In this document: piece by piece, positions 10,173-44,006 of the stretch | Numbering within the stretch: the stretch's first letter is position 1 | Layout of the letters: every line of letters begins with the position of its first letter | Translations under genes and position numbers: made by a program | Source of the DNA: Lachnospiraceae bacterium | GTDB taxonomy: Bacteria; Bacillota; Clostridia; Lachnospirales; Lachnospiraceae | Assembly (NCBI GenBank): GCA_017408025.1 | Contig: JAFQVJ010000044.1 | Coordinates: 62,001 to 126,000, forward strand | DNA length: 64,000 nucleotides | Reading direction: 5' to 3' | Notes under the pieces: generated by a model | Database searches by the model: none | Told to the model about the DNA's origin: nothing | What the model saw: only the letters and a program-made list of their open reading frames with translations

Positions 10173-12593
10173 TTATCTTCCACCATACTGTTTCTTCTTC
10201 GAGATAACGCTGATTCCCGCACAAGCTACAGCTGTCATTCCGAGAACTGTAATCCATAAACCTGTCAGGCTGTTGTCTGCTGTTATCGGTGCTTCTGCTA
10301 ATGCCCTAACTATCGCATACTCTGAAAAATGCTCTAATTCAACTACTATACAGCCATCCATATATGTAGTAGCAATATCCTCTGTTTTGCCATCATCTGC
10401 AATATGAATAACCTTATAATCACTACCCTTTGCACCTGCTTCTAAAGCAAACGGAATCTGAACCTTAATCTTTCCATCGCCAAATTCTGTTATATTCTTA
10501 TCGTTGCAAAGGATTTCAGCTGATATTATCTGCTTTACTTCTCTATTCTTTATAGCGTCCTGCTGCTTTGTTGTCAGCTTGTCCTGCTTTACTTCGTCGA
10601 TTTTAAGTGAGATGCTCAAGTTCTCTCCTGCGTCCTTTACTATCTTCTCCAATGCCTCTACATCTATAGTTACAAGTGCTTTTGCAGTTTCAATCTTTAA
10701 TGCCTTTTGAACCTTAGCTATCTCTTTAAGCGAATTTACAGGAATATTAACTTTTTTCACTTCCTTTGCAACATCTTCCAATGGAAGTGTAACTGTATCT
10801 AATGTACCAGCATTTGTGATTGCCTCATTTATAATATCCTCTGTAACCTCAACACTGCCCTCATTTACTTCAATCTCTGGTGTAACATCCTTTTCCGCCA
10901 ATGTATATATACTGAAATGATCTGTTGCAAATGTTGCATATCCATCCTTAACTGTTACTTCATATTCCTGTATCTGTTTATCTTCATCAACATAATATAC
11001 GATTAAGCTCTTATCCTTAAGCTCTGTGCCAATAGGTATCTTAACCTGGAACTTACCGTTGGCAAGCTTCGATATATATTTTTCCAATGAATTAGAGAAG
11101 AGCTTAATATCGAATGTAAGATTATCCTTAACCTTCAATGTCTTAATAATCTCTTCATATGTGTCACCACTTGTCAGCTTCTCAACATTAATACGTGTAT
11201 CGAGTGGAATTGATGAATCATTTGCCTCTACAGTAACATCTGTGGCAACATCTGATGAGCGGTATTCCGGCTCAACCATAGCGTCACTGTCCACTACTAC
11301 TATAAACATATATGTAGCTTCGCCAATTTCCATGTTAAACCAATAATCTCCTGCTGCGCTCTGAAGATAATAGAAATCTCCGTCCACTTCATCGTATGAA
11401 TTCAACACATAGTCCTTGCTACTCTGTGTCCATTCAATTGACATTTCACAATTCATCTTTTCCATAGTATATGATGACATGGCATTTGAATATTCCATGC
11501 TATCATTTTCACATGTAGCCCTTGCGATTTCGTATTCAGATACCTTTTCATTATATTCTTCAATCTGTTTCTGACATTCCGCTTTACTTGCTTCGTACAT
11601 TGCAGCATTATCAGGGTCTTCCTCTATCATAGTGTCATAATTATTAAGCTGATTTAGAAGGTCACTTATAGCCATATAACCAGCATTGATTTTTGCTGTA
11701 TAATCAGCTATGCTGGTATTACAATCTGTGATCAAAGCCTCCAACTTTGTAAGTTCTGTAGTACACTCTTCCAATTTTGCTTCATATCCAGCAATCTCTT
11801 CATCATACATATTTACATAATAATCTCTGATTCCCTGACCACCGTACGTTATCTTAACCTTGCCTGCTCCTGCATATTCATCTACTCGCTTCTGTGCTGC
11901 TGCCATCAATGCTTCCTTTGTTACCTCTGTACCATCTGGAACATATATGATGTGCTTACCACGTACGCCCATCTCAACATTACTATATACAACACCATCA
12001 TAAATAAATGGTGCCATACCTGATGCCTCTGTTAAGAATTCTGCATCCATTCCCATTCTGCAATCAATAGTAAAATTCTTATAATTTATATAAGACTTCA
12101 ATTCACCAGAATAGTCTATCATAGTATTAATCTCACCACTATTAAGCCACCAGCTAAGCAATTCCATGTCATTGACAGCAAAGTAATAACCTCCTTCTTC
12201 ACCGCCATCTGGGAACTCGCTTATCATACCATCAACCATTGTCTTAATATCACTATCATACTCATATACAATATCCACAACGTGACTTTCCTGTGATGTA
12301 TCTGTTGCCCAGTCATATTTGTAGTAAATGGTACATGACTTAAAATCTTCACTGAATAAGTCAAACCTAAAGTCTGGATACTTATCCCACATATGCTCCA
12401 TCTCATTAAAGAACCAATATGCCTCATCCTCCGAAGCAGGTACAACCGACTTCATCACGAACTTTCCATCTTCATTCAAGATAGATTTAAACTCCTCACT
12501 CATCGCAGTGTCAGTCTCTGCAAATGCTGTCATAGGTATCATAGATACAACAAGCATAAGCACAAGAATACACGAAAAAAATCTTCTCCTCAT
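10173..12593 (-). CDS. exported coiled-coil protein with C-terminal membrane anchor, unknown function
   Basis: I do not recognise a family in this 806-residue protein. It starts with a clear Sec signal peptide (MRRRFFSCILVLMLVVS, cleavage likely after AFA near residue 25). Residues about 260-375 are a heptad-rich coiled coil containing scattered Cys. The C-terminal half is beta-rich and Val/Lys-rich, and a single membrane segment (about 778-798) ends in the basic tail KKKQYGGR. There is no LPXTG motif. The protein would therefore be displayed outside and anchored at its C-terminus. It is the last gene of the type VII locus. A role as an envelope or extracellular component of that machine, analogous in placement to the missing EsaA, is inference. 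Confidence 0.8.
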   Translation of the reverse strand: MRRRFFSCILVLMLVVSMIPMTAFAETDTAMSEEFKSILNEDGKFVMKSVVPASEDEAYWFFNEMEHMWDKYPDFRFDLFSEDFKSCTIYYKYDWATDTSQESHVVDIVYEYDSDIKTMVDGMISEFPDGGEEGGYYFAVNDMELLSWWLNSGEINTMIDYSGELKSYINYKNFTIDCRMGMDAEFLTEASGMAPFIYDGVVYSNVEMGVRGKHIIYVPDGTEVTKEALMAAAQKRVDEYAGAGKVKITYGGQGIRDYYVNMYDEEIAGYEAKLEECTTELTKLEALITDCNTSIADYTAKINAGYMAISDLLNQLNNYDTMIEEDPDNAAMYEASKAECQKQIEEYNEKVSEYEIARATCENDSMEYSNAMSSYTMEKMNCEMSIEWTQSSKDYVLNSYDEVDGDFYYLQSAAGDYWFNMEIGEATYMFIVVVDSDAMVEPEYRSSDVATDVTVEANDSSIPLDTRINVEKLTSGDTYEEIIKTLKVKDNLTFDIKLFSNSLEKYISKLANGKFQVKIPIGTELKDKSLIVYYVDEDKQIQEYEVTVKDGYATFATDHFSIYTLAEKDVTPEIEVNEGSVEVTEDIINEAITNAGTLDTVTLPLEDVAKEVKKVNIPVNSLKEIAKVQKALKIETAKALVTIDVEALEKIVKDAGENLSISLKIDEVKQDKLTTKQQDAIKNREVKQIISAEILCNDKNITEFGDGKIKVQIPFALEAGAKGSDYKVIHIADDGKTEDIATTYMDGCIVVELEHFSEYAIVRALAEAPITADNSLTGLWITVLGMTAVACAGISVISKKKQYGGR

Positions 12594-12736
12594 ACTTCTT
12601 CCTCCTCGTATTTTTTATTCTCACGATACATTTGCATGAATAGATTATAACATAAAGCCGTTTATTTGTATATACATTTTTCTTTTTTATGAGTTTTTTT
12701 CAGAAAGTAATTAAGTTATAGCAGTATTTCCCAAAT

Positions 12737-13054
12737 TTATAATAATATAGATAAATTGTCCTTTACATGAATGTATGTGATATCCTTTTCAATATAGATT
12801 TTATCCTTTCCTGACATCAACTGCCCCTCTGTAAGGATAGAAGTGATATTCTTCACATCATATATATTTTTCTGTATTTCTGGTTTACTCACAACCATTT
12901 TTCTTTCCTCCACAAATCGTCTGGCATTATGTCCACTGATGTCTCCCACTATTTTTCGTATATTTAATGTACAAAATAAAACTCCAGTTATTAAAAGAAA
13001 AACTCCTGACAATATAAATGTAATTAAGGAAATAAATGTATATGTATCTGCCAT
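12737..13054 (-). CDS. small single-span membrane protein of the secretion locus
   Basis: This 105-residue protein has one membrane segment at residues about 9-30, then a charged C-terminal part of about 70 residues (KIVGDISGHNARRFVEE). No family was recognised. It begins two bases after the kinase stop codon, so it is translationally linked to the kinase. It may be a membrane partner or substrate of it. A longer downstream gap of 143 nt separates it from the 806-residue protein gene. Confidence 0.65.
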   Translation of the reverse strand: MADTYTFISLITFILSGVFLLITGVLFCTLNIRKIVGDISGHNARRFVEERKMVVSKPEIQKNIYDVKNITSILTEGQLMSGKDKIYIEKDITYIHVKDNLSILL

Positions 13055-13056
13055 AG

Positions 13057-14772
13057 CTATCTTACCTCCGCATTTTCATATGTATCTACAATTTCATCTA
13101 TATATATATCCAGATTGGACAAAATCTTATTCTGTTTGTCAATAGACTTATCCTGTGTTACCATCAATTTTCCTGTCTTTTCATAAATCTCCATCAATAT
13201 TTTCATAATTCTCTCACTTGATATTCCTGTGGCAACAAGGCCTTTCCTTTGATCAAAGATTAAATCAGAAACCGCCTCATATACTGACAACTTTATATAT
13301 GGCAGATTCTCGTTATCATACCCCTCCAGATTGTCTATACATTTCTCAAGGGATTCCACTAAAGAATTGTATATTTCGTAGCTGGGCTCTCTGGTGTTCG
13401 TCTGATTTGCCACATAGTTCCTATAAAAATCACAAATAACATAATAGGATTCTGCAAGCTCATAATTCTCATATGTTTCACTTTTTCCACGGATTGCTTC
13501 TTTGAAAAACGAATACGCCTTTAACGCTCTTACCTTCAGGGATACATTTTCATCATTTATTCCATACAGATAAAAATATGTAATTCCGGCAGTATAATTC
13601 ATATCTGCGTAGCCCTCATCCGATATGTCGTACTCATTTTCATTCTGCTCATTGAATGCTGCATTATAATATTCTATAAAATCTCTACTTTCTCTATCCC
13701 CAAATAAATTATTGTCATTGTATGCCTGTAAAAGCCTGTTGTACGCCTCGAATCTGTATGGGAATAATTCTATGGCCTCCTTATAGCTGTGTATCCTCTG
13801 GTCATAATCTGTGGATGTGCTGATATTTATTTTATGCTCGTAATTTCTATCATTTTCCAATGCCGCTAGAAAGTTAAACACTATACCTGATACAAACATA
13901 ATAAGAGTTGTAATGGCGCATAACGTAAACCCTCTTAATTTTGTTCTCTGCTTTTTCCTATAGTTATCATCCATTTCCTCATAATGCTCCAACGCATACA
14001 TCAATTCATCGCAGCTCTGATAGCGGTCATCTGGATTAAGCTGTGTACATTTATTTATAATAGCTTCCAGCCCTGAGGATAGGGCTGGATTCCACTGTCT
14101 TATAGGATACAGCTCGTATGGAGGCTCTGAAGGATTCTGTCCCGTCACAAGATGGTAAAGTGTTACTCCAAGACAATATATATCTGTTCTGGCATCAGTC
14201 TGTCCCATTCCACCGAATTGCTCTGGGGCAGCGTATCCCCTTGTTCCTAAGCTTACCGTATCATTAATGTTGTATTCCTTATATTCTCTAGCGATACCAA
14301 AATCAATAACCTTTAGACCACCTTCAGGCTTGAGCATCACATTTGCAGGCTTCATATCTCTGTATATAATGGGCGGAGTCTGAGAGTGAAGATATTTTAG
14401 TACATCGCAAAGCTGTTTTGCCCACTTTATAACATTCTCCTGTGGCTGTGCCCCTCCAGAGATAAGTATTTTATCAAGGGATTCACCTTCAATATAATCC
14501 ATAACAACGTATATCGTACTGCCATTATCGATAATATCAACTATTCTAGGCAATGCCGGATGATCAAGTCTCTTCATCAGATTAGCCTCAACAAGCAGAC
14601 TTTGTACTATAACCTGATTATTTCTGTCGTTTGATATTTTACTTATCTCCTTGATTGCCCACTGCTTATTTAACCTTTTGTCCATGGCAAGGTAAACAAT
14701 AGACATTCCACCTCTGCCTATCTCCTTAAGAACCTCATATTTATTATCAATATTTGAACCTATTCGTACCAT
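13057..14772 (-). CDS. membrane Ser/Thr protein kinase (PknB-like) with extracytoplasmic TPR-like region
   Basis: Residues about 5-270 form a Hanks-type kinase with all key residues visible. The glycine loop is GRGGMSIVY, the ATP lysine is in WAIKEI, the catalytic loop is YRDMKPANVML, the metal motif is DFG in IDFGIA, and GYAAPEQFGG follows. One membrane segment (about 287-310) leads to an outer region of about 260 residues with helical, TPR-like character and many Tyr and Asn. There are no PASTA domains, unlike the PrkC/Stk1 housekeeping kinase. The layout (kinase fold, membrane span, exterior helices) is that of EssB/YukC, whose kinase fold is inactive; here it looks active. The frame opens at a TTG; I take the ATG two codons later. 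It follows the PP2C gene by only a few bases. Confidence 0.88.
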   Translation of the reverse strand: MVRIGSNIDNKYEVLKEIGRGGMSIVYLAMDKRLNKQWAIKEISKISNDRNNQVIVQSLLVEANLMKRLDHPALPRIVDIIDNGSTIYVVMDYIEGESLDKILISGGAQPQENVIKWAKQLCDVLKYLHSQTPPIIYRDMKPANVMLKPEGGLKVIDFGIAREYKEYNINDTVSLGTRGYAAPEQFGGMGQTDARTDIYCLGVTLYHLVTGQNPSEPPYELYPIRQWNPALSSGLEAIINKCTQLNPDDRYQSCDELMYALEHYEEMDDNYRKKQRTKLRGFTLCAITTLIMFVSGIVFNFLAALENDRNYEHKINISTSTDYDQRIHSYKEAIELFPYRFEAYNRLLQAYNDNNLFGDRESRDFIEYYNAAFNEQNENEYDISDEGYADMNYTAGITYFYLYGINDENVSLKVRALKAYSFFKEAIRGKSETYENYELAESYYVICDFYRNYVANQTNTREPSYEIYNSLVESLEKCIDNLEGYDNENLPYIKLSVYEAVSDLIFDQRKGLVATGISSERIMKILMEIYEKTGKLMVTQDKSIDKQNKILSNLDIYIDEIVDTYENAEVR

Positions 14773-14779
14773 TTCCAAT

Positions 14780-15562
14780 CTACTCCTGTGACACTTTAAT
14801 ATAAGCTGCCGTTATATTGTCTGTTTCGCCTCTATCCATATTTATCCGTATTAATTGGGAAAGCTTGTTCTCGATTATCTCCTCTGAATCAGTATGTTTT
14901 GGATTCATCCATACAAACAGCTCATCAGAAGAAACCATATGTCTGAATCCATCAGAACACAATAAAACACCATCTCCTTCACATACCTTGCCCCGGTAGT
15001 ATTCTATCTCCAGATTTGGAGTAGCCCCTATACATTGGAATAAAACATTTCTTCGAGGATCCGTTTTTGCCTGCTCCTCTGTCAGCCTTCCGCACTTAAT
15101 TTCTCTTGCAATTAAAGACTGATCCTCCGTTATCTGGGAAATATTCTCCCCTAACAGATATGTTCTCGAATCTCCCACGTTGGCTATTACATATTCATCA
15201 TCAATTATAAGTATAGCTGTTATGGTAGTTCCCACATTAACACGATTTTCTTTTCCATAATTGTTAAGCTTATGGTTGATTTCTTCTAGCAACATATTCC
15301 ACTGAGACTGTATTTTATCAAATACCATGCCTTCTTTCTCTTCTTTTATGATGGCTGGAAGGTATCCTTCCAGCCATTCTGAAAATTTCCTTACTGTAAG
15401 CCCACTTGCCACTTCTCCTCTTTGTAGTCCTCCCATACCGTCACATAATACTGCCATGGCGATATTTTTATTTCCACACCTTCCAAGCTTAATGGTAAGG
15501 CTATCCTGATTTGTGTTTTTTGTTGTGCCAATATGGGTTGCTGCCCCCGCCAAAAATCTCAT
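14780..15562 (-). CDS. PP2C-family Ser/Thr protein phosphatase
   Basis: This 260-residue cytoplasmic PPM phosphatase is expected to reverse phosphorylation by the adjacent kinase. Metal-binding aspartates are visible in NQDS (about residue 19), LCDGMGG (about 41), NVGDSRTYL, LCSDGF and ETDNIT near the C-terminus. Length is typical of PrpC/Stp. It lies 12 nt after the FHA gene and directly before the kinase gene, so kinase, phosphatase and phosphothreonine reader are encoded together. Confidence 0.93.
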   Translation of the reverse strand: MRFLAGAATHIGTTKNTNQDSLTIKLGRCGNKNIAMAVLCDGMGGLQRGEVASGLTVRKFSEWLEGYLPAIIKEEKEGMVFDKIQSQWNMLLEEINHKLNNYGKENRVNVGTTITAILIIDDEYVIANVGDSRTYLLGENISQITEDQSLIAREIKCGRLTEEQAKTDPRRNVLFQCIGATPNLEIEYYRGKVCEGDGVLLCSDGFRHMVSSDELFVWMNPKHTDSEEIIENKLSQLIRINMDRGETDNITAAYIKVSQE

Positions 15563-15574
15563 ATACCCTCCATC

Positions 15575-16615
15575 CTATACATTAAATTCATAACTTTCAT
15601 TTGCAAAACGGAGCATTTGACCGGGCTTTATCTCGGTTAAGGTGTCTACCTGTAACCTCTCATCATCTATATATGTTCCGTTAGTTGAACCCTTATCTAA
15701 GACAAAGTAGTCTCCATTTTGAATAATTATCTCTGCATGATTCCTACTGACTGCATTGTTGCCTGATACCATATAATCAACAGAAGCACTCTGACCTATG
15801 CTGAAATTCTTTTTGTTTACAGATACTTTTTCTCCATTGCTGACTCTGACTATATATGGATAAATTACTCTGTTTAACTCCTCTGGTGCCAACACTGTCG
15901 TACCATATTCCGGAGCTCCCAAAACCGTTGTTCCCACCACCGAAGCTTGCTGACCCCCAAGCAGCTTTGATGGGTGAGCATACATCATAATATTTTCCTG
16001 GGGTTTTAAATCTGCTCCCTTAAATTCAATCTCCTTATCACTTTGCTTATCTCCCGGTGCAACGCTCTCACCATTCATCTGGCGCATGAACAACTCAAAA
16101 TCGTAAATCGAGAAATTAGGATGATTGCCAAAGTAAGCAATATATTCCTTAACAAACCCACAATCCTCAAGCTGATTAAACACAGTTTCAAACGCAAGAG
16201 ACTGAAAAAAATGTTTTATATCTGACTCCACATCATAATTTATAATCGGCAGATATACATACATCAGAGTTCTCGTGCCTGGTTCCACAAATATATAATT
16301 TGTAGAAATTAAGAAATTTTTTGTACTAAGCATGAGCCTTTGTGACTCGTTTACCATATCGAGAACAGACAAAACCATATTTAAAAAACCTTTCTTGGAG
16401 GTAACTGCCTGAAGATATTCCTTAAGTGACATATAGTTTGTAACCCTGTATATAAGCTCAGTTTTCCTTTTAACCCCTATATCAGGGTTTATGAGCTGGT
16501 ACACCTGCCCCTTTCTTAACAGTTCAGCCTCTCGTGTATTAATTGTCTGTGCTGGCGACAGCTTTACACTGACGTATTTTTCTTTTCCCTTCTTTATCAC
16601 TTCAATCTTGTTCAT
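15575..16615 (-). CDS. FHA-domain protein with DUF6382-type N-terminus
   Basis: Residues about 1-190 resemble the DUF6382 family, named here from memory of the domain arrangement. A low-complexity linker follows (TTVLGAPEYGTTVLAPEE) with repeated TTVL motifs. A C-terminal FHA domain (about 265-346) carries the phosphothreonine-binding residues in SRNHAEI and the STNGTYIDDERL motif. FHA domains bind phosphothreonine, and the TTVLGAPE and TTVLAPEE threonines are plausible targets of the neighbouring kinase, as in GarA-type switches. No membrane segment is seen. Its role as the reader in the kinase-phosphatase set is inferred from family and position. Confidence 0.85.
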   Translation of the reverse strand: MNKIEVIKKGKEKYVSVKLSPAQTINTREAELLRKGQVYQLINPDIGVKRKTELIYRVTNYMSLKEYLQAVTSKKGFLNMVLSVLDMVNESQRLMLSTKNFLISTNYIFVEPGTRTLMYVYLPIINYDVESDIKHFFQSLAFETVFNQLEDCGFVKEYIAYFGNHPNFSIYDFELFMRQMNGESVAPGDKQSDKEIEFKGADLKPQENIMMYAHPSKLLGGQQASVVGTTVLGAPEYGTTVLAPEELNRVIYPYIVRVSNGEKVSVNKKNFSIGQSASVDYMVSGNNAVSRNHAEIIIQNGDYFVLDKGSTNGTYIDDERLQVDTLTEIKPGQMLRFANESYEFNV

Positions 16616-16636
16616 TTTTATATCCTTTCAAAGAAA

Positions 16637-19600
16637 TTACTTTGCCCTGATTCGCTTTCTTCTGATTATCAAGCATACTACACCACCAGCCACGGCTGTT
16701 GATGTTCCGATTATTGTTCCGTAAAACAGTGGCTTATTCACATACCATCTTACGAACATATCTGTAGATACTGTAACTACATCACAGAAATCAACAACTT
16801 TACCAAGCTTCATATCCTCCATGTTATCCGTGTCAATAACATTACCTGCCTTATCTTCTATGGCAAACCTGACTTTCTGCTCCATGCCCTCTTCAATATA
16901 GAATTCTCCTCTGTAGGTTGTAACATCACTGAATTCTGTCACTGTCTGAATCACATTTCCATTGAGAAAAACTCTTACCTCTTCTATTGCCACTGCATCA
17001 AAAGCTTCATATTCCACCCGTATCCTATCACTGCTATATGAATCTTTACTTAGTCCCATGACCTTGACTACCTCAGGTTTAGTCGTATCCACTGAAAATC
17101 TGACGGCCATTTCATCGTATGTTATTGTATTTGAATTATTCCCTGCTTCATCCGCTGATGAAACTGAGATAACATATACTCCATCATATTTGAAATTATC
17201 CTTAGAAATTACATAACGATACTGATACCAGCCACTATCACCGACCGATTCTCCACCATTTTCCTCGTAGGTCTCCATAACTACACTGTTAAGCAGTGAA
17301 CCGTCCCTTGTGATAGTAACTTTTACGGAATCAGCCAAAATCCTGTTAGCATTATATTCAGTGATAACAAAATCATTATCTATTGACATATTATATGTAT
17401 TGACAATATTTTTAAGGTTTTCATCAAAGGTATACACTGATCCAAATCTATTAACAGAAAAGGAAATGGTCTCTGTGGACGTTCTACCCGCATAATCCGT
17501 AGCTGTGACAACAAGTGTATAAATTCCGTCATTTTCCTGAACAGCATTGAACGAATCCAGCTTGATTTCTGCTCCTTGCTCATCTATATTTCTATGAGAG
17601 ACAAGCAATGACGTAACATCCATCTCAATGAAGCTGTTCACATCGGTCTTATTGCCATTAAAGTACACACCTGTCTTAACAATATTCACACTGCAATCTC
17701 TGTAAAAATTGTCCTTTATAGATATTGATGGCACTATCTCATCATTATATGCCGCACCGTTTTCAACACCATTTATCTCAATGACTGGCATGTAAGTATC
17801 TATTGTAAATATCACCGTTTTTGTCAGCGCCACATTTCCAGCTTTATCCTTGGCGTCCACCTTTATAGTGTATGTTCCCTCCTCTGTAAACTCCTGAACA
17901 AGTGAGGATTCCTTTTGTGTACCATCAAACTGCTTACTCTGCACCATTTCCTCCACACCATTCAATTCTCTTGTAATGCCAATAACAACATCTGTATTTT
18001 CATAGTTTGATTCGACAACATCTATCTTTACACTTGCTTTGTCCATATAATATTCGTTAGGTGTAACACCTGAAATTTCAGCAATAGGAGCTGTATTGTC
18101 AACGATAAAGCTTATTGTTTTAGGCTCAGCCTTGTTTCCCGCCGCATCCTCAGATGTAATGGTTACAACATATGTGCCATCCTCTGAAAATGTATACGCC
18201 TGCTTAGTATTCACTGAATAATATGCAAATGGTTCTGCCTCATACTCAGTTACTTTTCCATCTAATGTCTTTTTTACAGTAACTACTGTCTTATTTCCCT
18301 CCTCTGAAAAATGCTTCTCCATTACCTGAAAATTAACTGTGATAATGCCTGTATTGTTACTTCCGTTCTCAACTCCTGTTATATCGGAAATAACAGGTGC
18401 CACCATATCAATCTTCACTCTATCCGTGGCTTCTGTTATATTACCTGCATTGTCCTCTGCAATCACCTTTACCGTATATATGCCAGATTCGCTTATTACC
18501 TTTTCAATCCATGATTTGTCAATGGTTATCTTATATGATGAATCCACTGTATACTTATCTGAGCAGTCATATATTCCATATTCTGTATCGTTCACAAAAA
18601 CCTTTACATTCTTTATACCTGAAGCTGGAAGCTTTTCTGTTCCCTCATCTTTAAGATTAACTATGTATGTGACTGTGTCTCTATACCACTCTCCCTTAAA
18701 TGCTTCTCCAGTTTTTTCAAAAGCTGCTTTAATCTTATTATTCTCCAGGAGGACATAATCGCTGGAAAAAGGATGTTTCCCACTACCATCACATATGCTG
18801 CTTAAAGATATCTTCTGCACATTTTCTACGTTGTCGGTAATGGTAAGGTACATATCACCTGATGTCATGACATTTACAGAAAAAGTAATGATTCCATCTT
18901 CATCTAATGAACCATTATATACCACATCATCGATATTCATTGTCACACTATGGACGCCAGAACCGTCATCCTTTGGCTTAAAGACAAATCCTGTAGGTGA
19001 ATTATAAAAGTTTCCAAATGCTGTTCTGCTCTCATTACCCTTAGTATCTGTATCCACAAATTCTGCGGTAGGAGCCCCTGTATCTACATATATCTTATAT
19101 TCACCATTCACTCCTGAATTACCTGCAAAATCCTTTATATTTTTTATCTGAATAGTAACAAGACCTTCTTCCGTTTTGCTATATAAGGCGGTGTCTATTA
19201 CATAGGTATCAGACAATACCTTTTCCGTCATTTCCTCAAAAGAAACCGTTTCGATATATACACCATTTACATGCACTTCATATGATAACAGGCCGGAAGC
19301 CTCACCTGCATCCGCACCTGACACTAAATCTGTCACAACTGCATTTACCTTTACATCTCCACCAGTCCAAATCTTATTATCTGACTCGTATACCTTGTAC
19401 TCACTGTCCGAATCAATAGAAAATGTTGCTATTGCAGGCATATCTTCTATTACAATATTTCCAATCTCCTCTATTACAGAATTGCCCGCTCTATCTCTTA
19501 CACAGATTTTTACATTTCTATTTTCTCCATTATATTGCTCGCCATCAAGCTTAAACACACAATATTCTTTTCCATCTGACGTTTTTAATATATTCGATGT

Positions 19601-22776: not shown

Positions 22777-22793
22777 AAATGCCTTAAAAATGT

Positions 22794-25118
22794 CTATTTG
22801 TTTACAATTACCGTACAAGTAGCTGTAAATTTTCCATCGCTAGTCTTTACAGTAACTAGGGAACTTCCCTCAGATATACCTGTGACAATTCCTCCTGATA
22901 CAGTTGCTATATTTGCTTTTTCGGAAGACCATACCAAATCACTTTCCTTATATCCATCTGGAAGTGTACACTCTATAACTGCACTGTTACCTACGTCCAC
23001 AATGATAAGGTACCTGTCAATGTATAAGCCTCCCTGAGGTTGCTTTTCCCCATCACCACTTGTTGTCTCCTCCTGTTTAAGAGGAATAACCTCCTCAGCT
23101 CTCACCGCACTCTGGGTATCATACAATTTAATTTTCTCTGCCTGATCCTGCGATATCAGTGTAAATTCAGCACTCAAACAAAGCTCATTTATAACCGTGT
23201 TATCCTTTTTTCCTACCTGCAATTTGATAATAGGCAGATATAGATTTACATCAGTTTTTAATCCTATTTCTTCATATATAGTAATCTGTTCTGCCGTATG
23301 GTCTATATTGGCACCATCTTCAATATAGAAGCTTGCCGTTGCCTCAAGCTTTCCTGATGCGGCAAGTGCCACATCTATAATGTCGATATCAATAAATGTA
23401 AGACAAGCCGTCAATCTTGCACCTGCCTCTAAGCTAAGCTTTGCATCAATAGACTGCTTTGCAGATTTGTCACATGTAGACTTGAAGCCGTTTGCATTTT
23501 CATATTCCATTTTAGTGGCACTTGTAACCTCAAAATTGTATGAAATCTCCCCGTTTGCCTCCACAAAAAGACTTACTTCTACAGTAATGACGAATCCACC
23601 ATTTATAGGTATCTTCAATTCGCCAAGCTTTGCATCTCCTCCAATTTTTCCTTTCAATGTAACATTAGATGTAGTTTTGCTATTGAGAGACAAAGAAAAC
23701 TTTTCAACCGTTGTATTTCCCCAGTCAAAATCTATCTTTGCTTCTGCCGCAACACCAAGCTCCAGCTGCACCTGACCTGTCAATGAATATCCTGCCTTGT
23801 ACTTGTATACAGGTTTAGCATTTTCCGTAATCTGCTGTCTGTATGTCTCAAGCTGGGAACAAAACTCCTCTTCACTTATCTGTCCTGCATTATACTGGTC
23901 TGCCAGCTCCCCCATTTTATCCAGATATGCTCTGTCATTGCTAAATGCTACTCTTGACCCCTCTGCTGTCTTGATAAAGTCATCATAATCATCATTATTT
24001 GTCTTTGAATGCTTACCTGAAAATTTGAATTCATCAAAATATGTTCCCATTTTTGACAGTTTAGCATCAAGAGATGTATCCTGAGTTAGCTCTGATGAAC
24101 CATCTGTAAGATTGATATTTAAAGTAATTGTCTTACTTCCTGAAGCAGATGCCTCCACTGTATTATCTATCTTATGATCAGTTCCACTTAGATCACTTAT
24201 ATGTGACATGTCTGCCTTGGCAGTTAATTGGGCACTATTTGCCTTAGCTGAGTCCTTAACTATGGTAACACCTTCAACTGGAACAAAATGCTCTGAGTCA
24301 GCAATTGCATATGTGTCTATATCAATTTCATCTAGAACCTCATATATCTCTGGGCGTTCTACCTTGATAGTACATGCGCCGTCAGCCTCTACAGTCTTTG
24401 ATACAGCCTTTACTGCATATCCTTCCGGATACTGCTCACTTGGCACAAGGAAAACCTCTCCTGTATCTATGTCAGCAGCCTCACTGGCCGGCATGGTTAT
24501 CTGTGATGCATCTTCATTCACAGTTACATTTTCACTGTCAGTCTTATCTAGCACATCTTCTCTATATTCAACTATTATATGGTCATCCTCTGAATTATCT
24601 TCACTGAGATAGCATGTTACAGCCGAATTGAGAATTACTGCAGCCTCTACAAGACACAGACCTTCTGTAAGCTTTTTGTCTTCACCGTATTTTATGCTTG
24701 TGATACCTTTGGCATTTGCTAAACCTAAGATACCCTCATTAGGATCATCTCCCTCCATATATTCCCGGTAGTCAATGCCTGTAGCCAATACGGATGTGCT
24801 TATAACAAATCCTGTTGTAGCGATTTCATCTGGTTTAAATGTATCTGTTCCTGTAGAGAGAATTCCCCATTCATAGCATGATTGAACATACGGAAAAATC
24901 TCACTGTCACTTGCAACATCAGTATAATATGGCTCGTTATTCATATAGTTAACCATACCGAATCTCTGTCCCAGCATGGTTACCCATTGTCCTCTGGTCA
25001 GATAGTCGACACTTCCTATACTTTGATCCTTATTATCTGAACCACATGAAATCAACGTTGTTAAACACATAACTACAAGTAGCATCATAGCTACAATTCT
25101 TCTTAACTTCCCCTTCAT
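22794..25118 (-). CDS. lipoprotein with SLH-like N-terminal domain and C-terminal Big_2 domain
   Basis: This 774-residue protein has a lipoprotein signal with lipobox LISC (Cys about residue 26). Residues about 38-190 resemble S-layer homology modules (TRGQWVTMLGQRFG, DVASDSEIFPYVQSCYEWGI), which can bind the cell wall. The middle third is beta-rich with many Ser, Thr and Lys, and residues about 685-774 are a Big_2 Ig-like domain (SEKANIATVSGG). It should therefore be lipid-anchored and wall-associated. It directly follows the first WXG100 gene by 16 nt, in the same transcription unit. A wall-docking part for the secretion machine is inference. Confidence 0.78.
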   Translation of the reverse strand: MKGKLRRIVAMMLLVVMCLTTLISCGSDNKDQSIGSVDYLTRGQWVTMLGQRFGMVNYMNNEPYYTDVASDSEIFPYVQSCYEWGILSTGTDTFKPDEIATTGFVISTSVLATGIDYREYMEGDDPNEGILGLANAKGITSIKYGEDKKLTEGLCLVEAAVILNSAVTCYLSEDNSEDDHIIVEYREDVLDKTDSENVTVNEDASQITMPASEAADIDTGEVFLVPSEQYPEGYAVKAVSKTVEADGACTIKVERPEIYEVLDEIDIDTYAIADSEHFVPVEGVTIVKDSAKANSAQLTAKADMSHISDLSGTDHKIDNTVEASASGSKTITLNINLTDGSSELTQDTSLDAKLSKMGTYFDEFKFSGKHSKTNNDDYDDFIKTAEGSRVAFSNDRAYLDKMGELADQYNAGQISEEEFCSQLETYRQQITENAKPVYKYKAGYSLTGQVQLELGVAAEAKIDFDWGNTTVEKFSLSLNSKTTSNVTLKGKIGGDAKLGELKIPINGGFVITVEVSLFVEANGEISYNFEVTSATKMEYENANGFKSTCDKSAKQSIDAKLSLEAGARLTACLTFIDIDIIDVALAASGKLEATASFYIEDGANIDHTAEQITIYEEIGLKTDVNLYLPIIKLQVGKKDNTVINELCLSAEFTLISQDQAEKIKLYDTQSAVRAEEVIPLKQEETTSGDGEKQPQGGLYIDRYLIIVDVGNSAVIECTLPDGYKESDLVWSSEKANIATVSGGIVTGISEGSSLVTVKTSDGKFTATCTVIVNK

Positions 25119-25134
25119 AGGTCCTCCTGTATTC

Positions 25135-25455
25135 CTAAACTGATATCAGTAATTTCTTCGTTGCCTGATCAGCTGTATGAGACTGTATAGCCTCATATCC
25201 GTCAGCTGTTTTCTTAAGAAACGCTGCATATTCTATCATCAACTGCTCCATTGCCTGAAAATCATTCTTAAACATATTTATCTGCTTAACATAAGCCACA
25301 TTATCTTCTCCCTGCCAGAATCCTGATTCTGAGATTGAATCTATAGTGGTATATAGAGTTGTATATTCATCTCTATACTTTTTGGCTATACTTTCAACCT
25401 TTGAAGATGCAGCTCTCAAATCAGCAGAAGTTACAATAATTTTCCCCTGTGCCAT
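25135..25455 (-). CDS. WXG100-family secreted protein A
   Basis: A 106-residue helical-hairpin protein of the EsxA class, a substrate of the EssC motor. The turn motif WQG (GFWQGED) lies about 40 residues in, between two helices. It closely resembles WXG100 protein C (25963-26274) throughout, including AAFLKKTADGYEA compared with AAFLKQTAAKYRA. The frame has an ATG four codons upstream at 25467, but that one sits inside the ribosome site: GGAGGAAGAG lies directly before the ATG at 25453-25455, giving MAQGKIIV, which aligns with MARGQITV of its paralogue. No signal peptide, as expected. Confidence 0.9.
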   Translation of the reverse strand: MAQGKIIVTSADLRAASSKVESIAKKYRDEYTTLYTTIDSISESGFWQGEDNVAYVKQINMFKNDFQAMEQLMIEYAAFLKKTADGYEAIQSHTADQATKKLLISV

Positions 25456-25490
25456 CTCTTCCTCCATCTGTCATCATTATTTTTTATATA

Positions 25491-25564: not shown

Positions 25565-25565
25565 A

Positions 25566-25600: not shown

Positions 25601-25603
25601 CCA

Positions 25604-25628
25604 GGTGGTCAGCTAACAGCTGACCACC
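25604..25628 (-). terminator. GC-rich hairpin directly after WXG100 gene B
   Basis: A perfect 11-bp stem GGTGGTCAGCT/AGCTGACCACC with a 3-nt loop lies 22 nt past the stop codon of gene B. It has no T-run of its own but stands back to back with the hairpin at 25566-25600. Together they could protect the mRNA 3' end or reduce read-through. Confidence 0.5.
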
Positions 25629-25649
25629 ATAAGTGGATACCTCCACATC

Positions 25650-25946
25650 TTACTCAAAGGCCGCTGCATTTGAATTGATTGACTGCTCTGTTGCCTCATA
25701 ATTTGATACAGTTGTCTCAAGGAATGTAACATAAGACTTAATAATTGTATAATAGTTATCAAACTTAGGCTGCATATCTGTGATCTTCGCTCTGATTGTA
25801 TCAGATGCATCTGATGTCCATACCGACTCCAATGCATTGATAGCTCCCTTGATATCTGTAAGATGCTGATTTAATGTATCATTACTTTTCTGAATTGCCT
25901 TTGCCTTATTTCTTACTTCACTAAAAGTAATCTTAATATCTGCCAT
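25650..25946 (-). CDS. WXG100-family protein B, divergent
   Basis: This 98-residue helical-hairpin protein is WXG100-like in length, helical pattern and position. The turn reads VWTSDAS, so the Gly of W-x-G is replaced by Ser. It is clearly different from its two neighbours A and C, which resemble each other. It may form the heterodimer partner of one of them, as EsxA-EsxB do, or be an accessory substrate. GGGGAG lies upstream of the ATG. It lies between genes A and C with 16 nt to C. Confidence 0.85.
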   Translation of the reverse strand: MADIKITFSEVRNKAKAIQKSNDTLNQHLTDIKGAINALESVWTSDASDTIRAKITDMQPKFDNYYTIIKSYVTFLETTVSNYEATEQSINSNAAAFE

Positions 25947-25962
25947 ATCTACTCTCCCCTTT

Positions 25963-26274
25963 CTATGCGTTTGTTGCTAGCTGCTGTGCCTGTGTCTTAA
26001 TATCTGCCTGTGCTGCACGATACTTTGCCGCTGTCTGCTTCAAAAACGCAGCATAATCTCTCATAAGCTTCTCCATCTTTTGAAAATCATCCTTGAAACC
26101 CTCGATTTGTGCTGTGTATGCAGTATTATCAACACCTGCCCATGCAGACTGCATATCAGTAACTAGTGAGTATAGGGATGTATACTCCCTTAAGTAGCTG
26201 TCTGCGTACCCCTCAACTTTCTCTGCCACAGAATCAAGCTGAGTTGTTTCAACTGTAATCTGTCCTCTTGCCAT
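25963..26274 (-). CDS. WXG100-family secreted protein C
   Basis: A 103-residue protein with the WAG turn (SAWAGVDN, about residue 42) between two helices and no signal peptide. It is a close paralogue of protein A. It is the first WXG100 gene after yukD in transcription order. A copy of repeat family 2 lies just upstream (26301-26374). As a member of the ESAT-6/EsxA family it is expected to be exported by the EssC motor, alone or as a dimer. Confidence 0.92.
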   Translation of the reverse strand: MARGQITVETTQLDSVAEKVEGYADSYLREYTSLYSLVTDMQSAWAGVDNTAYTAQIEGFKDDFQKMEKLMRDYAAFLKQTAAKYRAAQADIKTQAQQLATNA

Positions 26275-26300
26275 TTTTTAACTCCTTTCATTTCTTACAT

Positions 26301-26374
26301 TGATTAGGGTGTCAAAACACCTTAATCCAAGTTCAACGGATTACTACGTGTTTCCCACTCCCACAATCTTATAT
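26301..26374. repeat. repeat family 2, copy B, upstream of WXG100 protein C
   Basis: This is an ungapped match to 25491-25564. Its own hairpin pairs GGTGT with ACACC and GATTA with TAATC, with changes in both arms compared with copy A, which suggests the structure is kept. It fills the gap between the YukD gene and WXG100 gene C. Confidence 0.75.
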
Positions 26375-26626
26375 TTATATTAATATCAATTGAGAGCCAT
26401 TCATTATCCCTAACTCTTCAACTGAATAATTAATATTGAAAATTGTACCTGTCGCTCTATGGCAAAGTACTAAATCTTCGGTTGCTTTATATAAGCCGTC
26501 CGAAAGCTCCTCCAAAGCCTGACCTACAAGTTTACATACTTCCCACATCTGGCTACACCTTGGTATTTTTATGTCATAAGATTTCCCAGCTGCTGGTAGA
26601 TAAACTTCTACAATAACATAACTCAT
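26375..26626 (-). CDS. YukD/EsaB ubiquitin-like type VII secretion protein
   Basis: This 83-residue protein has the ubiquitin-like beta-grasp pattern of the YukD/EsaB family: an opening strand YVIVEVYLP, a helix MWEVCKLVGQALEEL, and closing strands ending NGSQLILI. In known systems EsaB is a cytoplasmic regulator or accessory factor of the EssC machine. It overlaps the EssC stop codon by one base, so the two are translationally coupled. Neighbours confirm the assignment. Confidence 0.9.
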   Translation of the reverse strand: MSYVIVEVYLPAAGKSYDIKIPRCSQMWEVCKLVGQALEELSDGLYKATEDLVLCHRATGTIFNINYSVEELGIMNGSQLILI

Positions 26627-29600
26627 TACTCATCCTCATTTTCTGTGAATTTACTTGTGAGTGCTTTTAGCATAACAAATCTTCCCCTGCTGATATATAA
26701 ACCGAAGCCTTTTTCCATCTCCTGATAAAGCTCGCTTGTTGGTTTAGTTATCTTGAGAATGTACTGATCTGCAGAGCCATACCCTATCCACAATCCTGAT
26801 GGACTTCCACAATGTTTCTTATACCATGAGTCAAATGTAATCTTATTCATAGCCGCCAGTGAATCACCTATGATAAAATGAATATTCAACTGTAGCCTTC
26901 CCTTTTCAAAGAGAACCTTAAGCTTATCATTTCCATCTTCTGTTAAACTCTCCTTTAACCTTTCCAGGGAATTTATAATATAAATAATTCTCTTTTCAGT
27001 AATTTTTTGATTCTCTTTAAAGTATTTATGTCTGGCCACAGTCTCATTAAACATATCTACAATTACTGATTCCAAATTACTATTATGGTATTCATAAGCC
27101 TTTTCTGAGTCATATACAAACTTGTCTATAGCATCCAGCGCAATCACTTTCGCCTCAATTCTCTGGGACATCAATTCTGCTATTCCCTGCAATACATGAG
27201 ACACACCTTCACCATCCTGAGATATAACAAATGTAAAAAAACTGTCCATAATGTTGTGATAAACAGGGGCGAGACTTTTTATATTGATGCCTACAGGAAA
27301 CTTATCTAATGTAACTTCTATCTCTGACACATAACTACCATCAACTCTGTCGGGTAGGACAGGAATTCTTCTGGCATAAGATCCCTTATGTTCTAAAACC
27401 AGCCTTTCAATACACTGCTTCACAGTATTCATTACCATATCAGGCTCAGCAATTCTTGCTGTCTGAAATTCATATGTATGCTCATCCTTAATAATTCCCC
27501 TTCCCTTCATATCTGATGGATATACTCCTTCCGTCGATCCCAATATTGCTGAATAATCCGCCTTATCATTCATTTGCAGCACCAATAATCGTTTAAAATT
27601 CTGCACCAATCTAAATCTCATAGAACTGGCATTTGTTGCTGTAACAATCATATATATTCCATATTTAGTTCCCTCTCTTGACACCATTGCCACAAGCTCC
27701 TCACACATCTCATACATCTCCGCAAAGGCAGAATAGTTATTTATAAAAACAACTATATTTGGGCATACATTTCCAGAATTTTTTACATATGAAATGTAAT
27801 CTCCACCGTAATCTACAAATATCTTCTTTCTCTGAACAATTTCTGCCCGAAGCATTTTCATAAGATTTACTACCTTTTCTTCCTCAGTTAAAAGCACAAC
27901 ATCGCCTACCTGTGGTGCATTGGCAAACATCTTAAGGGTCTCTGCTCCAAAATCCAGAATATATATATTAAGATAATCTGCCGTGTGTTTATTAATAAGG
28001 TCATAAATCATCGTGGTTAAAAACGTAAGCTTTCCACTGCCTGCGACACCATATATAAGTGTGTTTCCCTCTTCTGCAAGATTCAGAGTCAGGATTCTCT
28101 GATTCTGATTAAACGGATCATCCAATTCACCAATGACAGGATGCAATATATAGGGCTCATCCTTCTCCATAGTATATTTTTTTAAAAGTTCATCCAGAAA
28201 AATACATTCCGGCATTGAATCAAGCCATAAGGGTCTGACACTTATCCCCTCCTCATATGCCAGTTTTGATAAATATCTGACCATTGCCACAATCTGCTTT
28301 GTCTTTTTCTCACCAAATTCAAGTTTTTTTACAGGCTTTACGGATTTTTTCACTCTGCCAATATTATCAATAACCTTTATGCTATCATCAGACTTCTTCT
28401 CATTACTTTCATGTTCATAATATGGTGCTCCACACCAAGCAGACTGACCTAGAGCAAAATATTCATTAAATCCCACCTGAAGATAAAATCTTCCTGTATT
28501 AGATAATTCAGCAGCCTCAGGTCTTTTAATCATATCTACACTGTCCGCCTTTTCCTGCACCTTAAGACAAACTCTGAACCTGGTATTACTCCAAATCTGG
28601 TCATCTACTACTCCCGATGGCTTCTGGGTTGCAAGTATAAGATGGACGCCAAGACTTCTTCCTATACGTGCTGCACTGATTAACTGTGCCATAAACTCTG
28701 GTTGCTGTGCTTTTAATTCAGCAAATTCATCAGATATGATAAACAGATGTGGGATTGGTTCATTTACCATCTTATCCCTGTACAATTTCTGGTACTTATA
28801 TATGTCCATTGTCCCTTCATTTGCGATTCTTCTGACCTCATTGAATACAGCCTGTCTTCTTCTAAGCTCGCTCTGAATTGATATAAGAGAACGTTTAACC
28901 GCTGCTCCATCCAGATTTGTTATTGTTCCTGCAAGATGAGGAAGCTTTATCCCCTTTTCCTTATCCTCAAAAGCTCCCGTAAGACCACCACCTTTATAAT
29001 CAATAAGAATAAATGCTACCTCATCAGGATGATAATTGACCGCCATGGATAAAATATATGTGATGATAAACTCACTTTTGCCTGAACCAGTCATGCCAGC
29101 CACAAGGCCATGAGGTCCTTGAAATTTTTCATGAAGATCCAGCGTAAACAGCTGTCCTAAGGTATCTACACCTATGGGAGCCGACAATGACATTGTAGGA
29201 TTATTATTCTTCCATCTCATAAGAGGATTCAAATGTTCGATTTTATGGACATCAAACATATCAAGAAATGTAAGCATATCTGGCAGTGTATATGAATTGC
29301 TTGTGGTATTAAGGCTAATATTTGCAATTGACTTGACAATATATAAAATATCTTTATCAAGCTTCAAATCAGCTGCAAACTCAATCCTTCCCCCACTGGT
29401 ATCATTTCTATCATATATTTTAGAAACTGTTTCCCCTATCTCTATTACCATTGAGCATTCCTTGGGAAGATTATGAATACTGTCAGCTACATTAATGACA
29501 GAAAATCCATAGTTGCTTTCCTCCTCAAGTACCATTCGTATGATATCTGTCCTCCCTCCAATTGATTTATCAAGATTGAAAATAACATAATATGGAGAAT

Positions 29601-31206
29601 ATTTATCCTGGCCCCTTTTTTGACTTCTGTCGTACAATTCCTTCTCCAGATATACTGATATCTCTTTTGCCTGCTCAATGTTTGTTGCATAAAATCTTAT
29701 GTTTTTGTCATCATCCCATACATGTGGTATCCATCTGAACATCTCCCATCCATCTTTATCATCCTCCGCCACTATAAAAACCAGCTTCAGCTCATCATAG
29801 CTGTGTAGTGCTATCATCCTTACTATCATACTACTTATGAAATCTAATGTAAGTGACCGTCTATCACTGACGATTCCACATATCTTGTTCTCCGAAAATG
29901 AGTAGGTTATAGGTACTGAATCTAAATCCTTAGGCTCATTTCTAAGTGCCATAAGCTCGTCCTGAAGGTTATCCTCCTCCAATGAAAATTTTCTGTCTGG
30001 AAAAACTATGTTTCCAATAAACTGAACGTTTCCAAGTCCCACCCTAAGCTTCAAAAAATCAGACTGTCCTATCACTCTCTCCCACAGATTCGCTTTTCTT
30101 GAAATTATTCGCTCTGCACACTGTTCGACTGATACGTTATTCTCAAACAGTATGTCACTTTGTTCCTTCATTTCCTTCCTTATGCGATCCCTTATAGCGA
30201 ATAAGTAATCTTTATATTTTGCTTGTCTTAAGCGCTCCTTTTTTGCTGCTTTTCTCTTCTCATATTTCTTTAAAAGAATTGGCCACATTATCATTCCTAA
30301 TAACATACTACCTGACATAACAACTGTGGGCATTGCTGTCAGCATGCCATTTCCACTGCTGGTTGCATTGATTATAGCAAATGCAGCTGTAGATGCGGAT
30401 GCCATTCCCATGGTAACAGATGGCCCCACTACAAGAACCATCGGTGTTGTATCTATCTTTTCAACCGTTGGTGGTGGGTCAACTTTTATCTTGTGCTCTT
30501 CTATATCCCTCTTAAATCTGGGAGAACGATAAAAATATTTATCATCTAAATCCTGATAGGTAATTTCATTTTTATTCTCTTCAATGCTTTGTGGTGCATA
30601 ACTAAACAGAACAGATGAGTCATATGTCACTGTGTTATCAGGATTATTCATTGCAATGAAATTGCTGCCTATTATAACCTTAAACCCCATAATATAGACA
30701 GTATCTCCAGGTCTCAATGTCATCGTAGATACTCTTAAATCATTAACATAAGTTCCATTGGTGCTATGTTCATCAATTACAGTCCATATATTGTCAAAAT
30801 AAGTAAGCTTTGCATGGTGAGCTGACACAAAACTATTGTTGACCCGAATAGTATTATTGATATCTCTCCCAATGGTAATTTCAATATTTTCTGTGACAAC
30901 AAGCTTCTTATATTCCCTTCTTGAGTCATTTATTACCTCGGCATAGAGAAAAGACTCTCCTGACTGGTCGTAAATCTCCACATTATATATTGTGTCTGGT
31001 TTTAAGATTGTCTCACTTTCATCACTGTTTATCAGTCTGGCTTTTTTAGTTTCTTTTAGAAACCATTGCCCACCTACACCTTCTGCACTTATTAAATTTC
31101 TTCTTTTTCCATCCGGACCAATATCTGAAATCCAATACCTTCCATTTACCTTCTCTGGTAGAGTGATACTATATACATTTTCCGGCTTCAATAATGTAAC
31201 AATCAT
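26626..31206 (-). CDS. EssC-type FtsK/SpoIIIE ATPase of type VII secretion with FHA domain
   Basis: This 1,526-residue motor is the diagnostic component of the locus. An FHA domain (about residues 95-185) has GRDINNTIRV, SAHHAKL and STNGTYVNDLRV. Two membrane segments follow near 285-320. The first ATPase domain has an intact Walker A GMTGSGKS (about 705) and Walker B LFIISDE. The second has GVAGSGKL (about 1055), where Leu replaces the usual Thr/Ser, and the third (about 1330) has only DGEGVSH. Such decay of domains 2 and 3 is known in EssC/EccC. The length matches S. aureus EssC (about 1,480). The frame opens at a TTG, but I chose the ATG at 31204-31206, which follows GATGAGGAACAA. EsaA, EssA and a classical EssB are not nearby. 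Confidence 0.95.
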   Translation of the reverse strand: MIVTLLKPENVYSITLPEKVNGRYWISDIGPDGKRRNLISAEGVGGQWFLKETKKARLINSDESETILKPDTIYNVEIYDQSGESFLYAEVINDSRREYKKLVVTENIEITIGRDINNTIRVNNSFVSAHHAKLTYFDNIWTVIDEHSTNGTYVNDLRVSTMTLRPGDTVYIMGFKVIIGSNFIAMNNPDNTVTYDSSVLFSYAPQSIEENKNEITYQDLDDKYFYRSPRFKRDIEEHKIKVDPPPTVEKIDTTPMVLVVGPSVTMGMASASTAAFAIINATSSGNGMLTAMPTVVMSGSMLLGMIMWPILLKKYEKRKAAKKERLRQAKYKDYLFAIRDRIRKEMKEQSDILFENNVSVEQCAERIISRKANLWERVIGQSDFLKLRVGLGNVQFIGNIVFPDRKFSLEEDNLQDELMALRNEPKDLDSVPITYSFSENKICGIVSDRRSLTLDFISSMIVRMIALHSYDELKLVFIVAEDDKDGWEMFRWIPHVWDDDKNIRFYATNIEQAKEISVYLEKELYDRSQKRGQDKYSPYYVIFNLDKSIGGRTDIIRMVLEEESNYGFSVINVADSIHNLPKECSMVIEIGETVSKIYDRNDTSGGRIEFAADLKLDKDILYIVKSIANISLNTTSNSYTLPDMLTFLDMFDVHKIEHLNPLMRWKNNNPTMSLSAPIGVDTLGQLFTLDLHEKFQGPHGLVAGMTGSGKSEFIITYILSMAVNYHPDEVAFILIDYKGGGLTGAFEDKEKGIKLPHLAGTITNLDGAAVKRSLISIQSELRRRQAVFNEVRRIANEGTMDIYKYQKLYRDKMVNEPIPHLFIISDEFAELKAQQPEFMAQLISAARIGRSLGVHLILATQKPSGVVDDQIWSNTRFRVCLKVQEKADSVDMIKRPEAAELSNTGRFYLQVGFNEYFALGQSAWCGAPYYEHESNEKKSDDSIKVIDNIGRVKKSVKPVKKLEFGEKKTKQIVAMVRYLSKLAYEEGISVRPLWLDSMPECIFLDELLKKYTMEKDEPYILHPVIGELDDPFNQNQRILTLNLAEEGNTLIYGVAGSGKLTFLTTMIYDLINKHTADYLNIYILDFGAETLKMFANAPQVGDVVLLTEEEKVVNLMKMLRAEIVQRKKIFVDYGGDYISYVKNSGNVCPNIVVFINNYSAFAEMYEMCEELVAMVSREGTKYGIYMIVTATNASSMRFRLVQNFKRLLVLQMNDKADYSAILGSTEGVYPSDMKGRGIIKDEHTYEFQTARIAEPDMVMNTVKQCIERLVLEHKGSYARRIPVLPDRVDGSYVSEIEVTLDKFPVGINIKSLAPVYHNIMDSFFTFVISQDGEGVSHVLQGIAELMSQRIEAKVIALDAIDKFVYDSEKAYEYHNSNLESVIVDMFNETVARHKYFKENQKITEKRIIYIINSLERLKESLTEDGNDKLKVLFEKGRLQLNIHFIIGDSLAAMNKITFDSWYKKHCGSPSGLWIGYGSADQYILKITKPTSELYQEMEKGFGLYISRGRFVMLKALTSKFTENEDE

Positions 31207-31244
31207 TTGTTCCTCATCTCCCCAAAACAACTAAGATGCTTTCT

Positions 31245-31568
31245 CTATTTCTTGGTGCCGCAGAAAGGACATCTGACTTCTGTAGCAGCATAACTACAGC
31301 CACATTTCTTGCAAAAAACAACTCCAATACTTTTTGAATTGCTGCCTGCCTCCATATTTCCCAGTTTTATACATATGCTGTCAAGGCTTTCCCTCATCCT
31401 TATAGTCTTAATCATCATAGTGATGACCAAACCAATCAGCGCTGCCAACATTACAATTCCAATAATTAGCAGTACTATAATCCAATTTGAACCACTACTT
31501 TGCTCTGCAGCATTTGCCACCGTCTCTGTCATTTCAAAATCATAATCATGATATGTACCCTCAGACAT
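31245..31568 (-). CDS. small membrane protein with C-terminal zinc ribbon
   Basis: This 107-residue protein has one membrane segment (about residues 29-52, WIIVLLIIGIVMLAALIGLV) and a C-terminal zinc ribbon with two Cys pairs (CKKCG and CPFCG). The ribbon lies on the opposite side of the membrane from the short N-terminus, probably in the cytoplasm. It is the first gene of the type VII locus, 38 nt before essC. A role in assembly of the motor complex is inferred from position only. GGAGGG lies upstream of the ATG. Confidence 0.8.
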   Translation of the reverse strand: MSEGTYHDYDFEMTETVANAAEQSSGSNWIIVLLIIGIVMLAALIGLVITMMIKTIRMRESLDSICIKLGNMEAGSNSKSIGVVFCKKCGCSYAATEVRCPFCGTKK

Positions 31569-44002: not shown

Positions 44003-44006
44003 CTAG

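Follow-up and report, generated by a model that had tools for sequence, protein, structure and literature searches.

We identified a type VII secretion system (T7SS) locus at positions 10173–31568 of a 64,000-nucleotide stretch of DNA from a Lachnospiraceae bacterium (GenBank assembly GCA_017408025.1, contig JAFQVJ010000044.1, positions 62,001 to 126,000 of the forward strand), hereafter the window. By its parts list, the locus is a T7SSe-type system as described by Garrett, Higginson and Palmer (2024, PMC11217815), because each named T7SSe part has a counterpart, or for TseH and TseK a candidate, in the window. The locus probably combines a T7SSe export core with an attached portable phospho-control cassette, a swappable switch that would sense the envelope. 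A giant immunoglobulin-like (Ig-like) protein, a membrane Ser/Thr kinase, a small transmembrane (TM) protein, a PP2C phosphatase and often a DUF6382-FHA protein appear to form this portable cassette, which seems to be new. On balance, the evidence leans toward a wider claim, in which TseI, TseD, TseF, TseJ and the small TM protein constitute a portable cassette for phosphothreonine control that spans the envelope and is plugged into at least three unrelated surface machines in one bacterial family (T7SS, Tad pili and VgrG/DUF4280 contractile-injection-like clusters), with two sister copies in the present genome beside two of them. Searches of open-licence literature, which covered titles and the starts of abstracts with subscription papers outside, listed no description of a kinase/giant-Ig cassette found alike at T7SS loci, at Tad pili and at an injection-like cluster.

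All 14 open reading frames (ORFs) that fill the locus are on the minus strand, including the five cassette genes. TseI (16637..21664) is a giant Ig-like protein of 1675 aa (Pfam Big_13, 3.3e-17) with a hydrophobic N-terminal segment and a C-terminal TM segment; its signal peptide was assigned from a maximum of hydropathy at residue 11. TseJ (15575..16615) contains DUF6382 (7.6e-12) and FHA (1.6e-14) domains by Pfam and no TM segment. TseF (14780..15562) is a PP2C phosphatase (PP2C_2, 4.7e-13) with its metal-binding motifs present, and TseD (13057..14778) is a membrane Ser/Thr kinase (PF00069, 1.3e-48) with intact active-site K/D/N/D residues. The ectodomain of TseD appears TPR-like, matching designed TPR proteins in sequence, and its model is all-helical (predicted local distance difference test, pLDDT, 84.6; predicted template modeling score, pTM, 0.78). 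A 105-aa protein with an N-terminal TM segment (12737..13054) comes after the kinase in cassettes and is a candidate for TseK or TseH.

The export core lies upstream. EssC, the counterpart of TseC (26626..31230), is an ATPase of 1534 aa with two Walker A-like motifs, and it scored 1053.6 bits against NCBIfam TIGR03928 (cut-off 778.4). Pfam assigned it an FtsK_SpoIIIE domain (2.8e-46) and an FHA domain at residues 118–180 (8.8e-16), in which the phosphothreonine-type residues R122, S136, H139 and N158 are intact. It is the only full-length EssC of the genome; the two further matches were a partial one (query 676–921, contig C60; G, C and L numbers are our labels for genomes, contigs and loci) and the window DUF6382-FHA protein. 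A YukD-like ubiquitin-fold protein, the TseB counterpart (26375..26626), matched Pfam at 1.3e-4 and 23.1 bits, below the cut-off of 27. Three WXG100 proteins follow, with WAG (25963..26274; Pfam and NCBIfam), WTS (25650..25946; NCBIfam "pore-forming ESAT-6 family", 116.2 bits, cut-off 100) and WQG motifs (25135..25467; below the NCBIfam cut-off). All three exceeded the Pfam cut-off and are the genome's only WXG100 matches. A 107-aa single-TM protein with a zinc-ribbon-like C-terminal end (31245..31568), located 5′ of essC in the ORF list, is the other candidate for TseH or TseK and has relatives in G012, G017/L064, L034 and L055. Models of EssB/YukC, EssA and the EsaA N-terminus gave no match in the genome of the window (71 contigs, 91.04% complete, so that a gene may have been missed). 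As a control, B. subtilis scored above the cut-off with each model; the EsaA model also matched below its cut-off in three other control genomes. The preliminary description had proposed a T7SS of 14 same-strand genes that joins EssC with its own FHA domain, YukD and three WXG100 proteins to a kinase, a PP2C phosphatase, a DUF6382-FHA protein, a giant Ig-like protein and an SLH-like lipoprotein, and that lacks EsaA, EssA and classical EssB. The ORFs, Pfam and NCBIfam matches and a structure model bore out this inventory, with YukD and SLH below their Pfam cut-offs.

The portability of the cassette was examined across the family. Of 397 family genomes, 59 gave a match to a kinase-ectodomain profile built from three sequences. 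We mapped 22 cassettes, consisting of the 20 best places outside the genome of the window, the window itself and a second locus on contig C45 of the same genome. The giant Ig end was labeled in 20 of them, the small TM protein in 17, PP2C in 14 and DUF6382-FHA in 13, and the commonest order was J-F-D-K-I. The Ig label denotes a profile of Ig-like repeats plus a C-terminal TM segment, and individual labels may mark Ig proteins that are unrelated. EssC was present in the stretches of five mapped cassettes (window, G341, G224, G239 and G252), Tad genes in those of another five (G270, G073, G008, G051 and G130, G051 without the Ig label) and VgrG/DUF4280 in one (C45). For two of the five Tad cases the genes were called by Pfam: TadE, Peptidase_A24, T2SSF and DUF5702 in G270, and Peptidase_A24 and DUF5702 in G008. 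In the kinase tree, the window kinase was sister to the C45 kinase (support 100/99), followed by that of T7SS-linked G341 (91/89), and the five Tad-linked kinases fell inside a single supported group of seven. At least two machine-label changes over 14 labeled rows are needed on this tree. The genome of the window also has a Tad pilus locus on contig C29 (L143) with a third DUF6382-FHA protein and no adjoining kinase or PP2C label.

The C45 copy shares 39% identity with the window in the giant Ig protein, 59% in PP2C and 69% in the kinase. Its cassette is followed by DnaJ, DUF6382-FHA, further kinase, FHA and PP2C genes and then by a DUF4280/VgrG-like cluster (L157, L165 and L166); one FHA protein and one PP2C protein of C45 have further relatives at other loci of the T7SS kind. 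DUF4280 was above its cut-off (3.6e-24), and the VgrG-like protein was called from sub-cut-off DUF2345, Phage_GPD and Phage_base_V matches, VgrG calls being of this sub-cut-off kind in two genomes. A 724-aa C45 protein gave no Pfam match and no convincing PHROG or PDB match, and its candidacy as a sheath is unsupported by these searches. DUF4280 was found in 58 of the 397 family genomes. Among 20 chosen DUF4280 places (two of them short), one, in G339, was the same cluster type as C45, and this cluster starts with a kinase, a small TM protein, a giant Ig protein and PP2C. G339 is outside the 59 genomes matched by the ectodomain profile, so its kinase ectodomain differs. Part of a C45-type cluster was also present in L226, with no cassette within its 20 kb. 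Contig C26 of G339 (L227, L225 and L228) carries repeated VgrG-DUF4280 units, between which lie small genes that may be effector/immunity pairs.

These distributions bear on a structural explanation, in which all cassette proteins are structural T7SSe machinery: TseI would serve, as EsaA does, as a conduit across the wall, and the kinase would take the structural place of EssB. The cassette genes probably share an operon with the core here, and PMC11217815 predicts that the related TsdI may span the envelope like EsaA and notes that the TscD kinase has an EssB-like topology. However, the giant Ig label accompanied this kinase type at 20 of 22 loci while EssC adjoined just five, the 39%-identical giant Ig copy belongs to a locus that gave no EssC or WXG100 match, and the kinase active site is intact. 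We therefore consider the structural explanation unlikely. TseD is not claimed as an EssB/YukC homologue either, as the profiles do not align (probability 3%).

In 200 sampled family genomes, EssC (E up to 1e-30) was found in 49, YukC above its cut-off in 9 and DUF6382 in 192. The spread of DUF6382 far beyond EssC, together with the cassettes beside Tad and VgrG/DUF4280 genes, contradicts a dedication of the kinase-phosphatase-FHA set to T7SS. Scanning of genomes yielded 52 EssC loci, the majority from metagenome-assembled genomes (MAGs) named Clostridia, Lachnospiraceae or Bacilli. Neighborhoods were mapped for these loci and for 43 of the 49 EssC-bearing family genomes, including that of the window (G006, G092, G105, G187, G190 and G193 were outside). 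After removal of EssC proteins shorter than 1150 aa and three duplicates, 99 EssC rows were obtained, and a tree was built without the FHA part. The window was placed in a supported clade of 35 rows, with L034 and L033 closest to it and the YukC-linked clade far away. A locus was termed determinable when a kinase or YukC was seen, or when at least 12 kb of flank including 6 kb downstream was examined, and kinases of any type were counted. In the window clade, every determinable locus but one (30 of 31) had a kinase, the exception being L034, whose stretch ends inside tseI. The other clades together reached 16 of 40 (sister 0/8, long-EssC 8/10, YukC-linked 0/9, DUF6382-upstream 6/11 and a small clade 2/2). 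The co-occurrence of kinase and EssC put forward in the preliminary description thus stands for the window clade and fails outside it, where most relatives lacked the kinase, the outcome it had named as refuting.

The FHA domain of EssC followed a related pattern. With intact FHA defined as S/T plus NG, read by profile alignment, 37 of 46 EssC rows with a kinase were intact versus 3 of 25 rows without one; the other 28 rows had no kinase call. The three exceptions with intact FHA and no kinase were L034, G166b (where PP2C is present) and G088. None of the nine EssC proteins of the YukC-linked clade had an intact FHA.

Several observations weigh against an attached, portable phospho-control cassette. 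No machine was visible at 11 of the 22 mapped cassettes, several of which are cut by contig ends, and G065 showed only YukD. Nineteen of the 20 chosen DUF4280 places had no cassette, one of the 19 having a lone kinase. In the window EssC clade, the giant Ig label was found in just 3 of 35 rows (window, L033 and L034), many stretches ending about 10 kb from essC, and most kinases of this clade therefore cannot be assigned to the cassette. The FHA residues of the window TseJ read Q, S, H, N and G, with Q where arginine is expected. Nine of the 46 kinase-bearing EssC rows were without intact FHA residues, and R, S and NG were jointly kept in only 17 of the 46 (2 of 25 kinase-lacking rows). The association of FHA and kinase is also clade-bound: over 70 rows (L034 excluded), six independent pairs on supported branches gave an average of 1.4 concordant and none opposed, and a sign test on them was not significant. 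Striking as the counts are, co-variation was thus rejected as independent proof. Lastly, the DUF6382-upstream clade has the kinase in the 6 of 11 determinable loci given above, yet its EssC FHA was intact in 0 of 15 rows. In the same clade, S, H, N and G were kept in 8 of 11 TseJ-labeled proteins, which suggests that the phosphate reader may differ among clades.

Two further groups of EssC loci were observed. G013, G111, G137, G148 and their relatives (L118, L126, L104 and L095) form a family-level clade with EssC proteins of about 1570–1700 aa, often with one or two genes of 230–280 aa and obscure nature between EssC and YukD. L051, L056 and L074, from Bacilli/Tenericutes MAGs, have two EssC genes with starts about 9–10 kb apart and WXG100-like genes between them; no kinase was seen within the examined stretch.

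A second explanation treats the cassette as a kinase module for general cell-envelope stress, which stands beside surface machines by chance and exerts no direct control over EssC. The 11 cassettes with no machine in view fit it, and the six kinase matches in the genome of the window leave room for other targets. Its standing is reduced by the near-constant kinase in the window EssC clade, the intact FHA within EssC itself and the presence of the cassette at both mapped C45-type clusters, and we regard it as doubtful, a little more so than a structural role. An undescribed T7SS variant with phosphorylation-driven assembly, the proposal of the preliminary description, was rejected as highly improbable: its gene content and missing EsaA, EssA and EssB matches were confirmed, but T7SSe, composed of these same parts, had already been published in PMC11217815 along with the threonine-phosphorylation idea.

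The reading of an export core with an attached phospho-control cassette suggests the following mechanism. EssC, YukD and the WXG100 proteins would form the export core, with the SLH lipoprotein reaching into the cell wall, whereas TseI, TseD with its TPR-like ectodomain, the small TM protein, TseF and TseJ would form the control cassette. TseI and the kinase ectodomain are most likely the envelope-side sensor. The kinase would phosphorylate a threonine on itself or on a partner, the phosphothreonine would be bound by the FHA domain of EssC, TseJ or both to drive motor assembly or activation, and PP2C would reset the switch. Phosphorylation may in this way gate the EssC motor. In this scheme we infer the signal, the phosphorylated residue, EssC as the target, the direction of control, TseI as a sensor and not a conduit, and the role of the cassette at other machines. 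Should the cassette prove to be shared, the parts of T7SSe would have to be listed as two sets, an export core and a controller that can be exchanged, and TseI would be a sensor candidate rather than a conduit. The cassette would then offer one genetic handle on how these bacteria decide when to fire unrelated surface machines.

The remaining genes of the locus encode exported or anchored proteins. The SLH lipoprotein (22794..25118; 774 aa) has an SLH part under the Pfam cut-off (E 0.069), a long-strand beta region at residues 439–679 and a C-terminal Big_2-like part. In its AlphaFold model (pLDDT 73.3, pTM 0.51), the SLH part matched solved SLH domains (7sv4, E 2.2e-4) and the Big_2-like end also matched solved domains; residues 439–679 form seven strands of 19–38 residues, for which a structure search of the model returned no credible solved fold. 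The lipoprotein label was assigned to 28 of the 35 rows in the window EssC clade, L065 via the Big_2 end alone, to which the match in G166a is likewise confined. A strict link of this protein to T7SS was rejected, as G049 and G008 match without being EssC-bearing genomes; among the matches listed, they are two of five family genomes that match over at least 500 of 676 positions. The lipoprotein may tie the T7SS machine to the wall. A 314-aa protein (21703..22647) with an N-terminal TM segment, a Thr/Glu-rich linker and a C-terminal domain has a relative found only in L034. An 806-aa protein (10173..12593) has a hydrophobic N-terminal segment and a C-terminal TM segment; no other member was found at E 1e-4 among the compared EssC-neighborhood stretches, and the ORFs labeled g1 in L055 and L064 are not members.

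Gaps between the 14 genes range from −1 to 182 bases, which is consistent with a single operon. The set is no chance row, because L033, L034 and G341 partly keep its gene order. Promoter and terminator scans gave no excess over shuffled sequences; the scan ended at 29700, with the 5′ end outside. By Pfam, housekeeping genes flank the locus, namely branched-chain amino-acid and related genes on one side (5322–9898; a thiamine pyrophosphate enzyme, an IlvD/EDD dehydratase and an isocitrate/isopropylmalate dehydrogenase) and pnp (31790–33874) and rpsO (34072–34338) on the other. The sole tRNA found in the window was tRNA-Glu at 44006–44078.

Among known systems, the locus is most fully compared with T7SSe, which comprises TseA, A2, B, C, D, F, H, I, J and K. 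In the open-licence literature, "T7SSe" together with "type VII secretion" was found only in PMC11217815, which reports conserved phosphothreonine residues in TseC and already raises the possibility of control by threonine phosphorylation. Both systems have at least two WXG100 proteins, a YukD-like protein, an EssC with an N-terminal FHA domain and intact phosphothreonine residues, a membrane kinase with an active site, a PPM/PP2C phosphatase, a giant Ig-like TseI with a signal peptide and C-terminal TM segment, and a DUF6382-FHA TseJ without TM segment; for the two small single-TM proteins of T7SSe, TseH and TseK, the window has two candidates. T7SSe has no EsaA, EssA or EssB, and these gave no match in the genome of the window. 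The window differs in its third WXG100 protein, the 314-aa anchored protein, the 806-aa exported protein and the SLH lipoprotein, the last being absent from the T7SSe component list in the portions of PMC11217815 available. The same paper notes that Tad genes adjoin T7SSg and T7SSh and that TsfV contains a TadZ-like domain.

T7SSj and T7SSf share with the window a PPM phosphatase and a DUF6382-FHA protein, and T7SSj also a kinase, TsjD, whose predicted TPR domain the window kinase apparently has as well. However, T7SSj lacks TseH, for which the window has two candidates, T7SSf lacks a kinase, and TsjC was placed nearer to T7SSf and T7SSb ATPases, whereas on our tree the window EssC is widely separated from the YukC-linked clade. 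T7SSb of B. subtilis and S. aureus has EssC (TIGR03928 equivalog), YukD and WXG100 proteins in common with the window, which differs in giving no EsaA, EssA or EssB/YukC matches, in an active-type kinase instead of a pseudokinase and in an intact instead of a degenerate FHA domain. Copurification of the FHA region of YukB with the pseudokinase domain of YukC is reported for B. subtilis (PMC9600267), and an active kinase facing an intact FHA would be a natural counterpart. The type VI secretion system has a threonine phosphorylation pathway (PpkA, PppA and Fha) in which a kinase, a PP2C phosphatase and an FHA protein control a secretion machine; the cassette described here would be comparable to it by analogy, acting on another machine.

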